A DNA stretch of 59,826 nucleotides from Acidimicrobiaceae bacterium (GTDB lineage: Bacteria; Actinomycetota; Acidimicrobiia; Acidimicrobiales; RAAP-2): contig PLON01000060.1 of the NCBI GenBank assembly GCA_003142095.1, positions 31,344-91,169 of the forward strand. Reading direction: 5' to 3'. A program made the translations under genes and the position numbers. The notes beneath the pieces are model-generated. The model did not search any database, had not been told where the DNA came from, and saw nothing but the letters and a program-made list of their open reading frames with translations. Below are positions 9,121-59,826 of this stretch, piece by piece (position 1 is the first letter of the stretch; the number at the start of each line of letters is the position of its first letter).

Positions 9121-9470
9121 GTGACATGCCGTCCGCGGTCGCTCTACCTGCTCGGCGGAGTCATCTGCGCCTTTTATCTCGAGAGCTTTCACGACTGGAT
9201 AGTGCGACACCGCAAAGGAATTGTCGTGGCGACCGTGCTGGTCGCGGTGGTGCCACTCGTGGTGGATTACATGTCCCATCACGGCGTCAGACTTTCGGGC
9301 ATCCTCGTGCCCGGCGGTAATCCCTTCGCCGTTCTCGTCATTCCCTACGACGTCGGAGCCAGTTTCGTCGTGTATCTCCTCGGCGTCCATCTCGTCAGTC
9401 CTCGGCGCAGTGCGCGCACGCGGGCCATCACCGCGTCGGGGTCCGAGGCCGCCTACGGCATCTATGTGTC
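9121..9470 (+). pseudogene. Acyltransferase family 3 (OafA-like) membrane protein, C-terminal fragment
   Basis: About 115 codons resembling the last helices of an acyltransferase-3 protein: YLLGGVICAFYLESFHDWI, hydrophobic stretches at about 35-48 and 75-95, and GSEAAYGIYVS, the conserved G-S-D/E-x-x-Y/F-G-I-Y motif that precedes the final helices. The 5' part is missing and the match stops abruptly at 9470, where the tail of a TnpB transposase starts in another frame. It was thus truncated by, or together with, an IS insertion. No product with activity is expected. Confidence 0.6.
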
Positions 9471-9547
9471 GCCGCGCGTAACATCCTTCGGGCCGGTAGT
9501 TAGCCCAGCGGGCTCTTGCCCGCGTAGGGTCGAACTGACCCACTACC
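9471..9547 (+). mobile_element. IS200/IS605-type right end (TnpB C-terminus plus two hairpins), copy 1
   Basis: The first 33 bases encode AARNILRAGS and a stop (9501-9503), the standard end of a TnpB protein. Then come two stem-loops, GCGGGC/GCCCGC (9508-9523, 4-base loop) and GGGTC/GACCC (9527-9541, 5-base loop), ending at ACTACC. The same 77 bases occur on the other strand at 58197-58273 with nine differences, none in a stem. In living elements this segment is both the DNA end recognised by TnpA and the 3' scaffold of the omega RNA that guides TnpB. No tnpA or full tnpB is present here, so it is a solo right end. Confidence 0.7.
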
Positions 9548-9581
9548 CCACTACGATTCTGATGAGCCAAGGTGAATAGAC

Positions 9582-15739: not shown

Positions 15740-16660
15740 ATGGCAAGCGACCGTGTGGGTTACCTCGGGCCCGAGGGCTCTTTTTCCCACGAGGCCGTGA
15801 CCACTCTAAAGAACGGGGACGCGGTCGCCTACCCCTCTCTGGAGGATCTCCTCGGGGCAGTGGCCGACGCCACGCTCGACCAGGGGCTTGTGCCGATTGA
15901 AAACGCCCTCGAGGGCACCGTGTCGGCCACCATCGACGGACTCGTCTTCGCTCATGACCTCGTCATCCTTCAAGAGATTGTCCTACCGATTCACCTGCAT
16001 CTGCTGGCTCGCCCGGGTGTCACGTTGAACGCCATCACGAGCGTGCGCAGTTACGTGCACGCTCTGGGACAAGTGCGCGGATTCGTTCACGAGCACGGGT
16101 TCGAAACAGTCCAAACGACCTCCACATCCCAGGCCGCCTCCGATGTCGCCGGGTCGCTCGAACCGTGGGCCGCCGTTGGCTCGGCCCTCGCGGGCCAGCT
16201 CTTTGGGCTCGACGTTGTTGCCGCGGACATCGAAGATCACTCGGAAAATGCCACTCGGTTCGTGTTGGTTGGTCGCGACGTTGTCGCGGCTCCGACGGGC
16301 CACGACCGCACCACGATTGTCTGCTTCCAAGATGCCGACCGTCCCGGATCGCTCTACGCCATGCTTGGTCGATTCGCCGCACGCGATATCAACCTGACCA
16401 AGCTCGAGAGCCGTCCGACGAAGCGGGGACTCGGTGACTACTGCTTTGTCATTGAGTTCGAAGGACATGTAGCGGACCAAGTCGTCGCGGACTGCCTGGC
16501 CGATCTTCAGGCGCATCTTGCGCGTGTGAAGTTTCTCGGTTCCTATCCCGTGACGGGCGAGGGCGCGAGCGACCGACGCGAAGAGGTGGCCGCGGCGCGT
16601 CTCGCGGCGACGCAATGGATCGATGCCATTCGCGCGCGTGTGAGACCGGCGTCGAGGTAG
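15740..16660 (+). CDS. pheA: Prephenate dehydratase
   Basis: 306 residues: a periplasmic-binding-like PDT domain (GYLGPEGSFSHEA at the start, PIENALEGTVSATID near 52, ENATRFVLVG near 168) and a C-terminal ACT domain (from about 190, with DRPGSLYAML and LTKLESRPTK). It converts prephenate to phenylpyruvate in phenylalanine synthesis and is fed back by phenylalanine through the ESRP motif. The catalytic threonine lies in the ATRF motif. It is monofunctional, as in other actinobacteria, without a chorismate mutase domain. ATG 15740 follows TAGCAT (15728-15733) by six bases. Confidence 0.93.
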   Translation: MASDRVGYLGPEGSFSHEAVTTLKNGDAVAYPSLEDLLGAVADATLDQGLVPIENALEGTVSATIDGLVFAHDLVILQEIVLPIHLHLLARPGVTLNAITSVRSYVHALGQVRGFVHEHGFETVQTTSTSQAASDVAGSLEPWAAVGSALAGQLFGLDVVAADIEDHSENATRFVLVGRDVVAAPTGHDRTTIVCFQDADRPGSLYAMLGRFAARDINLTKLESRPTKRGLGDYCFVIEFEGHVADQVVADCLADLQAHLARVKFLGSYPVTGEGASDRREEVAAARLAATQWIDAIRARVRPASR

Positions 16661-16690
16661 TGGCCCGGTTTCCGTTTCCTGTTGTTTGGG

Positions 16691-56740: not shown

Positions 56741-58177
56741 TTAGGACGTGATGGCCCGACCGGTGAGGCGCGGAACAAGAAACGTCATGCCGAGAGCCAC
56801 GAGGGTGATCACCGCGGAGATCTGAAAGGCGCGCTGATAGCCCTCGGTGAGGGCGGCGTTCCTAGAAACCACGTGAAGTACCGAAGCGGTGCGGTCGGTG
56901 GCGACCGTGGCGAGTCCGGCGAGGGCCAGTGATCCACCGACCTGGCGAGCGGTGTTCAACACTCCCGAAGCGAGTCCCGCGTCGGCTCGATCAACGCCCG
57001 AGGTGGCGGCCATGGCGAGGGGCGAGAAGAGCAGACCCATCGCGAGCGCCGTGATGAACGACGGCGCGAGCACGTGACCCCAATAGGAGCTGTGGGGTTG
57101 GACGAGCGAGAGCCAGAAGAAGCCGAGCGTGGCGAGCGTCGCGCCAATCTGCATGAGCGGGCGCCCGCCGGTCTTCGCAATGAGTCGCGAGGAGATCTGC
57201 GCACCGACGATGATGGCAATCGCGGTGGGCACGAAGGCCAGTCCCGCCTTCAACGGTCCGTATCCCAGAACGAACTGGAAGTAGTAGGTCAAGAAGTACC
57301 ACATCGCGAAGAAGACGCCACCGACGAGTACCATGACACCGTTGGCCGCCGACAACGGTCGCGAACGAAAGATGCGAAAAGGCACCAGCGGGCGCGAGGC
57401 GACGCGGGTCTCCCAAAAGAAGAACAGCGAGATCAGAATCAGACCCGCGATCAACCATTCCAGCGTGAAGCTCGACGTCCAACTATGGGTTGTTGTGTTC
57501 ACCACCGCGTAGATCACCGAGGCGAGTCCGCCGGTAACAAAGACGGCGCCCGTCACGTCGAGCTTGGCAGCGGCGTCCTTGTTGCGCATCTCTTGCAGGT
57601 ACAAGAAGGCGGCAACTCCCGCGACCAGACCGATGGGCACGTTGATGAAGAAGATCCAGCGCCACGAGACGAGTCCGGTCAAAATGCCTCCGAGGAGAGC
57701 GCCAACGGCACCACCGGCTCCGGCGACCGCGCTCCAGGCTCCAATGGCCATCGGGAGGCGCGGCCCGCGAAAGGTGGTGACGATAATGGTGAGCGTGGCG
57801 GGTGACAGAATCGCGCCGCCAATACCTTGAATGGCGCGCACCGTGATCATCTCGGTGCCGTTGTGGGCAAACCCTGCTCCGATGCTCGCGAGGGTAAAGA
57901 CGACGATGCCGGTCAGGTAGACGTGGCGGCGACCGAAGTAGTCGGCGGCGCGACCACCGAGGAGCAAGAACCCGGCGAAGGTCAACACGTAGGCGTTGAT
58001 GACCCACTGGGCACTGGCGTAGGTGAAGTGCAAATCGTGGCCCATGCGCGGCAGGGCGACGTTCACAATGGAGACGTCGAGCACGACCATGAACTGCGCG
58101 ATGCACGCAATAGAGAGGATTAACCAGTCTGGGGAATGACGTTTTGGCGCATCGATGAGGATGGTGTCTTCAGACAT
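56741..58177 (-). CDS. MFS drug exporter, DHA2 (EmrB/QacA) family
   Basis: 478 residues with 14 hydrophobic segments. LDVSIVNVALP near residue 34 (motif D1), GGRAADYFGRRHVYL near 73 (motif A) and a motif C-like run GAWSAVAGAGGAVGALLGG near 145 identify a proton-driven 14-helix exporter. The substrate is probably a hydrophobic or cationic compound. ATG 58177 follows TACACT (minus strand, 58184-58189) by six bases; directly upstream of that box lies a TnpB-type right end. No TetR or MarR regulator is adjacent. Confidence 0.9.
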   Translation of the reverse strand: MSEDTILIDAPKRHSPDWLILSIACIAQFMVVLDVSIVNVALPRMGHDLHFTYASAQWVINAYVLTFAGFLLLGGRAADYFGRRHVYLTGIVVFTLASIGAGFAHNGTEMITVRAIQGIGGAILSPATLTIIVTTFRGPRLPMAIGAWSAVAGAGGAVGALLGGILTGLVSWRWIFFINVPIGLVAGVAAFLYLQEMRNKDAAAKLDVTGAVFVTGGLASVIYAVVNTTTHSWTSSFTLEWLIAGLILISLFFFWETRVASRPLVPFRIFRSRPLSAANGVMVLVGGVFFAMWYFLTYYFQFVLGYGPLKAGLAFVPTAIAIIVGAQISSRLIAKTGGRPLMQIGATLATLGFFWLSLVQPHSSYWGHVLAPSFITALAMGLLFSPLAMAATSGVDRADAGLASGVLNTARQVGGSLALAGLATVATDRTASVLHVVSRNAALTEGYQRAFQISAVITLVALGMTFLVPRLTGRAITS

Positions 58178-58183
58178 TTTCCG

Positions 58184-58189
58184 AGTGTA
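58184..58189 (-). promoter_or_regulatory. -10 box of the MFS exporter gene, next to an IS right end
   Basis: TACACT, six bases from the ATG. The transposon right end stops at 58197, seven bases upstream, so the whole -35 region is transposon sequence. The last hairpin contains TTGACC on this strand, but 14 bases from the -10 box, too close for a standard -35. Confidence 0.55.
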
Positions 58190-58196
58190 ATGGCGA

Positions 58197-58273
58197 GGTA
58201 GTGGGTCAAATCGACCCTTCGCGGGCGTGAGCCCGCCGGACTATCTACCGGCCCGAAGGATGTTGCGCGCGGC
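58197..58273 (-). mobile_element. IS200/IS605-type right end (TnpB C-terminus plus two hairpins), copy 2
   Basis: Minus-strand counterpart of 9471-9547: 68 of 77 bases are the same. Stems GCGGGC/GCCCGC (58221-58236) and GGGTC/GACCC (58203-58217) are intact and the nine changes fall in the coding part, loops or linkers. The sequence immediately after the end (reading on the minus strand) is the promoter and start of the MFS exporter gene. In a working element those downstream bases would form the guide of the omega RNA. Confidence 0.7.
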
Positions 58274-58354
58274 TTTCACGTCGGCGTTAGCCTCGTGGCC
58301 ACACGAACAACATCGAAACTCCGCTTGACTCACGCGGTTACCAGGTTCGACGTG
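58241..58354 (-). pseudogene. TnpB C-terminal fragment
   Basis: Reads VEPGNRVSQAEFRCCSCGHE then ANADVKAARNILRAGR and stop (58241-58243). It includes the second half of the TnpB zinc ribbon (CxxC) and the RuvC-III aspartate in NADVKAARNI. Upstream of H-V-E-P (58354) the frame meets a stop and the match ends. The matching TnpB N-terminal fragment lies on the same strand at 59343-59797, with the FAH-family gene between them. Confidence 0.8.
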
Positions 58355-58357
58355 AAT

Positions 58358-58383
58358 TCAACCAATCAAACAAAATTGGTTGA
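58358..58383. promoter_or_regulatory. Perfect 9-bp inverted repeat before the FAH-family gene
   Basis: TCAACCAAT and ATTGGTTGA flank an eight-base AT-rich spacer (CAAACAAA), 18 bases before the start codon. The AT-rich symmetry suggests an operator or an mRNA hairpin. It begins four bases after TnpB homology ends, so it may instead be a scar of the rearrangement. Confidence 0.45.
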
Positions 58384-58401
58384 GAAACGGGGAGATGACG
58401 A

Positions 58402-59307
58402 ATGAAGTTTGCGACGATCAGGACCGAGCAAGGACTGCGCCTGCATGTTCGAGGTACGGACGGCTACGTTGATCTCGCCGAGGCCACCGGTAACGCGGAT
58501 CTCGTGAGCGTCAATGGCCTGGCGGCCGGCGGCACTCGCGCCATGGACGCCGCGCGAGCCGCGTCCACCGGCGCCGGCAAGAAGTTCGCTAACGCCGATT
58601 TCGGTCCCTCGACGCCGAACCCCACGAGAGTCCTGTGTCTGGGCGTGAACTACGCCGAACACGCCATTGAAGGTGGACGGGCCGTGCCGAAGTGGCCAGA
58701 GTCCTTCGTTCGCGGTGCCGGGAGCGTTATTGGCGCGTACGACGACCTGGTAAAGCCCGCGCTCACCGAACGCTTCGACTTCGAAGGCGAGCTCGCGATT
58801 GTGGTGGGCCGAGGCGGTCGCTACATCAAAGCCGAAGACGCCTTTGAGGCAATCCTCGGCTACAGCGTGATGAACGACGGTTCCGCGCGTGAGTGGCAGC
58901 GTGCCGCTACTCAGTGGACACCGGGCAAGAACTTCGACGGCACGATGCCCATCGGTCCTGACGTCGTCACGGTCGACGAAGTCGACGTGACGGATCTCGC
59001 GATCTCCACCACGCTCAATGGAGAGGTCATGCAGTCGGCGCGCACGTCCGACATGATCGTCAGCGTTGCCAAGGCCATCGAGTACTTCTCTTCTTTCACC
59101 ACGCTGCAGCCCGGTGACGTCATCGCGACGGGCACACCCGGAGGCGTGGGCTTCGCTCGCACACCGCCAGTTTGGTTGCTACCTGGCGACCTCATCGAAG
59201 TGACCGTCGAGGGGATCGGCACAATTTCGAACCGCGTCGTTGCCGAAGAGGATGCACCCACGGATTGGCCGTGGATGCCGTTGGGAGCACAAACGTCGTC
59301 GCTCTAA
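58402..59307 (+). CDS. Fumarylacetoacetate hydrolase (FAH) family protein
   Basis: 301 residues. The FAH catalytic domain has LCLGVNYAEHAIE near 77, the metal acids in FDFEGELAIVVG near 125, GYSVMNDGSAREWQ, QWTPGKNFDGTMPIGP near 173 and PGDVIATGTPGGVG near 240. The family includes acylpyruvases, 2-keto-3-deoxy-sugar and aromatic meta-pathway hydrolases or isomerases; no pathway neighbours decide. GGGGAG lies upstream of ATG 58402. It lies between the two ends of a TnpB gene, on the opposite strand. Confidence 0.9.
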   Translation: MKFATIRTEQGLRLHVRGTDGYVDLAEATGNADLVSVNGLAAGGTRAMDAARAASTGAGKKFANADFGPSTPNPTRVLCLGVNYAEHAIEGGRAVPKWPESFVRGAGSVIGAYDDLVKPALTERFDFEGELAIVVGRGGRYIKAEDAFEAILGYSVMNDGSAREWQRAATQWTPGKNFDGTMPIGPDVVTVDEVDVTDLAISTTLNGEVMQSARTSDMIVSVAKAIEYFSSFTTLQPGDVIATGTPGGVGFARTPPVWLLPGDLIEVTVEGIGTISNRVVAEEDAPTDWPWMPLGAQTSSL

Positions 59308-59342
59308 AGATCTGTAGTTTGCAGTAAGTGGATACAACAATT

Positions 59343-59797
59343 GGGATGCCGGCGAATGGCCGGTAGTAGTTCGTTTTGATCTCGCCAATACCCAGCAGTC
59401 GAAGACGCCGCTCGTCTGGCTTGAGTTTCCAGCCGGATCGGTCCTCCCACTGGAGGGAATCGAAACGCTGCGCCGACGTAAATCGGGGAAACCCCGGGGC
59501 CTCGCCGTCCTTCACGCGTCGAAAGAACGCAACGAAAGCTCGATCGAGGCGCTTCAATGTCCCGCGACAGAGTTTGACGCCGCTCGCCATGACCTCGGGA
59601 CGGACCTCGACGAGCCCGCTGAGTGTTCTGCACTGGTCGAAGTAGCTGACCGAGCGACGTTCTCACTGCCAAGCGCCGATTCTCTCTTCGAGGGCCGCGT
59701 TGTAGAGCTCGCGCTGGTAGTCGAGCTGGCGTACGAGCATGTGGGTCTGTTTGACCGTCGCGTGCAGGCGATAGCGATAAGTGCGACGGCGTGTCAC
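59343..59797 (-). pseudogene. TnpB N-terminal fragment with an in-frame stop
   Basis: About 151 codons from GTG 59797: TRRRTYRYRLHATVKQTHML, QLDYQRELYNAALEERIGAW, then a TGA at 59663-59665 (codon 45, where a tryptophan is usual), then SVSYFDQCRTLSGL, GTLKRLDRAFVAFFRRVKDG, FPRFTSAQRFDSLQWED and GIGEIKTNYYRPFAGIP. This is the N-terminal helical and wedge region of a TnpB nuclease (IS605-type OrfB). The match ends near 59343. The window ends 29 bases upstream of the start, so the element's left end is not seen. Confidence 0.85.
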
Positions 59798-59826
59798 GAT
59801 TACCAACGGTCGGGTGTAACAGCATA

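Follow-up and report, generated by a model that had tools for sequence, protein, structure and literature searches.

The window analysed here is the whole 59,826-nucleotide stretch G000:C21:31344-91169, whose final base is also the end of contig C21, and its source is a single assembly of one genome, which is split over 77 contigs and carries 3.5% contamination. On the minus strand an N-terminal piece of TnpB is followed by a TnpB C-terminus with the right end of the element, and a plus-strand gene of the fumarylacetoacetate hydrolase (FAH) family lies between the two. The contig stops at this element, and only the right terminus is visible in the window. The features are as follows:

56741-58177, minus strand: MFS transporter gene, the left host flank of the element (PF07690, E 1.7e-52; adjoins a presumably EttA-like gene in 13/13 relatives)
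58178-58196: rest of the host intergenic spacer preceding the MFS start (likeness to relatives stops about here, by eye)
58197-58212, plus strand: right terminal repeat GGTAGTGGGTCAAATC (13/16 to the family repeat)
58197-58354, minus strand: right end with the C-terminal part of TnpB (coding sequence 58244-58354; 86% to the C65 copy; PF07282, E 3.2e-07 on 58244-58357)
58355-58401, plus strand: captured FAH leader, with an operator palindrome at 58360-58381 and a ribosome site at about 58389-58393 (comparison with 25 relatives)
58402-59307, plus strand: intact FAH-family gene, 301 aa (PF01557, E 3.7e-65, 220 bits; genus orthologues 71-84%)
59308-59340, plus strand: captured portion of the FAH-livK spacer, to about the livK ribosome site (best spacer score L045, from G008)
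59341-59797, minus strand: N-terminal part of TnpB, interrupted by a single in-frame stop and ending before the first RuvC motif (79% to the C65 copy)
59798-59814, minus strand: beginning of the left end, where likeness to C65 persists (sequence comparison with C65)
59815-59826: terminal 12 contig bases TGTAACAGCATA, a TGTNACA-type left end or host spacer (unlike C65)

TnpB pieces of one lineage

The N-terminal piece opens at a GTG at 59797 on the minus strand, is interrupted by an in-frame stop at 59663-59665 and reaches about 59341, while the C-terminus closes at 58244 and the right end lies at 58197. Both pieces match a single copy elsewhere in the same genome (C65:16352-17572) in the same order and orientation. 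The C-terminal piece (58197-58354) shares 86% DNA identity with C65:16352-16508, and the N-terminal piece (59341-59814) shares 79% with C65:17099-17572. Between them, 590 bp of the C65 tnpB (about 197 codons) are absent from the window, replaced by a stretch of 986 bp. The arrangement read by the initial annotation, with a gap of about 990 bases and roughly 200 codons missing, is thus present in every part, order and orientation; the in-frame stop is an addition to that reading.

Among the first 10 to 13 candidates per genome from 61 genus genomes, including the genome under study, C65 is the best match outside the window for both pieces. The N and C regions were aligned and treed separately for the window and the six copies having both regions (7 sequences), and the window piece is sister to C65 in each tree, with support of 0.96 for N and 0.82 for C. 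In these alignments the identity to C65 is 79.2% for N and 87.8% for C, and a comparable gap is seen in the intact pair G084_C60/G084_C190 (N 83.6%, C 91.0%). The initial annotation had proposed comparing both fragments with one intact TnpB; both proved closest to C65 rather than to different lineages. These comparisons show that both pieces derive from one TnpB lineage. They presumably come from one physical copy as well, of which a common lineage alone is no proof.

The protein of the C65 sister copy matches PF07282, PF01385 and PF12323 (OrfB/Cas12f1-like domains). A profile search with the window N piece beyond its stop found no TnpB family at E 0.1, and this piece is assigned to TnpB because of its similarity to C65. 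The lost 590 bp include what we take, by eye in the C65 protein, to be the first two RuvC motifs, and the C-terminus in the window presumably retains the last RuvC motif together with the second half of the zinc finger. With the first two RuvC motifs gone, no nuclease is to be expected from the tnpB of the window.

The FAH gene, its home operon and the receiving site

As the initial annotation had it, the FAH gene is complete, lies on the opposite strand to tnpB and is preceded by a ribosome site and a real palindrome. The best solved relative of its protein is 1gtt (E 4.3e-53), a bifunctional isomerase/decarboxylase of hydroxyphenylacetate degradation. Full orthologues were found in 19 of 36 genus relatives (71-84% identity) and a split one in another, and the best matches in the other 16 were at or below 46%. 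The genome under study holds one copy of the captured gene. In most relatives examined, FAH stands at the head of a gntR / FAH-liv operon. Across 20 genus FAH loci, several of them short, gntR was found in 15/20 and livK in 16/20. A survey of the 4-11 kb context of 30 FAH-bearing relatives, made with crude ORF picking that missed some genes, even FAH in 7, gave a GntR-type regulator in 20/30, a LivK branched-chain-type binding protein in 21/30, the permease family in 15/30 and the ATPase family in 18/30. Genome G008, which lies near the genome under study in the MFS tree, retains gntR-FAH-livK. In the genome under study, livK gave no match in a search run without a positive control, which on its own proves nothing, and the orthologous gntR was not found, the only gntR-like gene being 31% identical. 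The gntR / FAH-liv operon appears to have been lost from this genome.

The edges of the insert were compared with the same operon. The palindrome AACCAAT-N8-ATTGGTT lies before FAH at 58360-58381; its ACCAAT half-site precedes FAH in 24/25 relatives and the full palindrome in 12/25, with the half-site in other arrangements in relatives that do not have the full palindrome. A TTGAC is present in 24/25 relatives, farther from FAH than the half-site. In the window the FAH leader keeps the palindrome and the ribosome site, and the relatives' -35/-10 boxes are missing. A sigma-70 promoter scan of both strands of 58100-59826 found none (shuffles mean 0.5). The similarity to TnpB reaches as far as 58354, five bases short of the palindrome. 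Downstream of FAH, the window tracks the spacer found in relatives (AAGATCTG..TTTGCAGTAA), with the highest score for that of G008 (L045), and TnpB similarity resumes at 59341, about where the livK ribosome site falls. In terms of the operon, the insert extends from the operator as far as the ribosome site of livK, and its origin there is fixed to a few bases on either side. Because the TTGGG at the 59341 joint resembles both partners, a few shared bases at 59340/59341 are possible.

TnpB was found near FAH in 0/78 orthologue or relative loci (C65 protein query, E 1e-3), while the window's own locus, the positive case, gave both pieces. This count covers L025-L082 and L106-L125, leaves out L083-L104 and L126 onward, includes some places present in both collections, and rests on flanks ranging from none or less than 100 bp up to 5 kb. 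At one locus (L029) FAH stands in a different neighbourhood, with no gntR or livK nearby and without TnpB, promoter boxes or half-site. At another (L108, from G005) there is no TnpB, and a search out to 1.5 kb from FAH gave neither gntR nor livK; FAH has also been relocated in other ways in these two cases.

The identity of FAH is highest with G028 (84%), whose MFS is only 72% identical. The branch that sets the captured FAH apart with those of G008, G034 and G027 has a support of 0.51, and for the spacer that follows FAH the closest counterpart is that of G008. Since the FAH tree does not settle the placement, and G028 is best by identity and G008 by spacer, FAH may have been transferred between species within the genus. 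The mean pN/pS of FAH against relatives is 0.246 (others 0.264), and 2/140 otherwise invariant positions are changed (others 0-5). There is no sign of relaxed constraint on FAH, and synonymous change is near saturation, which leaves little power for the time since capture.

At the receiving site, the MFS gene is neighboured in relatives by an ABC-F gene which we take to be EttA-like. In all 13 relatives fetched, the start of this gene lies 87-127 bases from the matched MFS start and the site is uninterrupted, so that the empty site proposed as a check by the initial annotation was found, in other species rather than strains. Agreement between the window and these relatives lasts until about 58196, where the element takes over. 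In the genome under study the EttA-like gene (92% to G007) starts with the first base of contig C47, as it should if C47 were the missing far side of the receiving site. Over 3.7 kb, counted from position 100 upstream of MFS, C47 runs in synteny with G073. The simplest reading is that C21 joins C47 in the order MFS, element with FAH, EttA; this join would leave a short host stretch (about 80 bases by G073) unassembled, and perhaps the outer part of the left end too. Given the uninterrupted site in 13/13 relatives and the start of EttA at base 1 of C47, FAH most likely lies inside the element. As the right end of the element is 20 bases before the MFS start, the control of MFS has probably been altered.

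Terminal repeats and target duplications of the TnpB family

As a rule, TnpB nucleases are associated with IS200/IS605 and IS607 elements, which are described without inverted repeats or duplications. The unexpected part of this study is a TnpB family that has inverted repeats together with 8-bp duplications. Other copies of the family carry GGTAGTGGGTCAGTTT (or GGTAGTGGCCTAGTTT) at the right end and its inverse at the left, forming 16-bp terminal inverted repeats. A repeat of the GGTAGTGGGTCAGTTT type is present at both ends of nine other elements (the genome's own C65, G007_C30 of 246 bp, G007_C78 of 159 bp, G073_C3, G084_C60, G084_C190, G033_C7, G015_C204 and G061_C28 of 440 bp), and in the window the right repeat GGTAGTGGGTCAAATC alone is visible. 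In 1.45 Mb of redundant sequence searched with up to 2 mismatches, the repeat was met only at loci from TnpB searches or larger stretches of them.

The flanking octamers of the nine elements match at 40/72 letters, compared to a permutation mean of 23.0, and this value was reached in 1/5000 permutations; an earlier run with eight of the nine elements gave 20/20000. Some matching flanks had been noticed by eye ahead of this test. At lengths 3-7 and 9-11, the same nine elements gave no signal. Individually, the elements show 8/8, 8/8, 7/8 and 6/8 matches, one has a 7-base repeat, and four are without a duplication (1-3 of 8). Target duplications of 8 bp are thus found in about half of the family elements. 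With inverted terminal repeats and a duplication of fixed length, the family has the end features of DDE-type TIR transposons. Among 12 loci searched for further two-ended copies, only the known G061 pair was found, with no new duplication case. Three mini-elements built from parts of the TnpB family were also seen, and their flanking octamers match at 8/8 (L233:863-1021, 159 bp), 7/8 (L232:1086-1331, 246 bp) and 2/8 (L147:1409-1848, 440 bp).

The last 12 bases of the window (59815-59826) match nine left ends at 6-8/12 and five host spacers at 5-7/12. They may be left end or host spacer, and if they are host, the left end would be cut at 59814. A TGTNACA motif lies upstream of tnpB, within the left end, in 8/15 other copies (for example at about 2573 in L236) and also in the left end of the G061 mini-element; it is absent from C65, the nearest copy. 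Elsewhere in the window, a second right end of the same TnpB family (88%) lies at 9471-9547 on the minus strand, with no left partner found, and closes an ORF at 9121-9579 that by eye resembles a truncated membrane acyltransferase. A word like the terminal repeat, with 2 mismatches, lies at 16656-16671 on the plus strand at the stop of an ORF that by eye resembles prephenate dehydratase; no partner repeat was found, and this word is probably due to chance.

As described in PMC7290912, IS200/IS605 elements have neither inverted repeats nor target duplications, and in the account of PMC6188088, IS607 has neither terminal repeats nor a duplication. The ends reported here do not fit IS200/IS605 or IS607 at the family level. 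No Y1 transposase (TnpA, absent in IS1341-type members) was found in the element. IS1341-type elements of the IS200/IS605 group, which are tnpB-only and for which PMC9956272 gives a length of 1252-1393 bp, are similar to the present family, which is about 1.2-1.3 kb and has tnpB alone with no transposase gene of its own; what sets the present family apart is the pair of 16-bp inverted repeats at its termini and the target duplication of 8 bp. Eukaryotic Fanzor, a relative of TnpB, is placed by PMC3627910 and PMC10711439 in TIR transposons with target duplications, sometimes as the sole gene. The present family likewise has a TnpB relative inside an inverted-repeat transposon with target duplications, but it has a bacterial host, a bacterial TnpB and an 8-bp duplication. 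The PATEs of Haloquadratum are presented in PMC3119063 as core-deleted IS605 remnants whose ends persist as short elements without the tnpB core and, in that account, without inverted terminal repeats, which the mini-elements of 159, 246 and 440 bp have. No case of terminal repeats around a bacterial TnpB appeared in the accessible text of the open-licence literature searched. A TnpB family of bacteria that has inverted repeats as well as duplications would widen the range of transposons joined by RNA-guided nucleases.

History of the arrangement

We propose that a tnpB-only transposon of the family with inverted repeats and 8-bp duplications came to sit between MFS and EttA, and that the middle of its tnpB was replaced by a fragment of the FAH operon through illegitimate recombination. 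Repair of a break within tnpB from a piece of the chromosome, or some comparable illegitimate event, would have swapped 590 bp of tnpB for a 986-bp fragment in the opposite orientation that carried FAH with its palindrome and ribosome site. The rest of the gntR / FAH-liv operon would then have been lost from the genome and FAH retained. The capture could have taken place either at the MFS-EttA site or elsewhere, with later transposition of the FAH-loaded element, and illegitimate recombination of the break-repair type is its most likely route. We put the probability of this whole account at about 0.8.

The initial annotation had suggested cargo capture within an IS605-type element, which would make FAH mobile. 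The capture is supported by the single TnpB lineage, by the cutting of FAH from a conserved operon and by the uninterrupted site in relatives, while the IS605-type assignment falls with the inverted repeats and 8-bp duplications. Mobility is not borne out: the genome has a single copy of this FAH gene, a second FAH-bearing element was not seen, and the left terminus falls outside the assembly. The FAH case is a junction-resolved example in which a chromosomal gene survives in a TnpB element after its operon has seemingly been lost. Pack-type transposons of plants have transposon ends around captured host gene sequence; compared to these, the present example is a single case in which a complete bacterial gene is captured with its operator.

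A broader and tentative idea, which we hold to be rather less likely than its opposite, is that this tnpB-only family is moved in trans by a putative DDE-type transposase, can swap tnpB for complete host genes and can carry them to new sites, the FAH element being a caught case. If true, such a trans-mobilised TIR family would be to bacteria what Fanzor-bearing TIR transposons are to eukaryotes.

The arrangement might instead have arisen from two copies of the same element that flanked FAH in direct orientation, after which deletions removed their inner halves together with what remained of the operon; such a composite could have moved to MFS-EttA. Pieces of the same lineage fit this history equally, and several remnants of the TnpB family are present in the genome, so that neighbouring copies are possible. 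It needs two tight insertions around FAH as well as two deletions within about 50 bp of the gene, and the absence of TnpB from the 78 loci also argues against it, which makes this history improbable. Less probable still is a chimera of assembly or binning, in which the assembler joined a FAH piece to TnpB sequence. The 77 contigs, the 3.5% contamination and the end of C21 at the element are consistent with such an error, but it would take two independent false joins within 1 kb, and there is no long exact repeat that would invite a join, as other sizeable matches to the TnpB pieces in the genome are at or below 88%, apart from one 23-base match at 96%. The FAH spacer is, moreover, nearest to that of G008, a neighbour of this genome in the MFS tree; the FAH tree, with a support of 0.51, does not settle the point.

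That the element is a genuine member of IS200/IS605 or IS607 carrying cargo is hardly credible, since the terminal inverted repeats and 8-bp duplications of the family contradict the descriptions of both groups given in PMC7290912 and PMC6188088, even though the C65 protein has PF07282, PF01385 and PF12323 and the genome has one Y1 transposase gene near another TnpB. That gene, the only Y1 match in the genome, lies on contig C12 (G000:C12:20287-21888; L249, L009) about 1 kb from its TnpB, and this locus is likely a true IS605.
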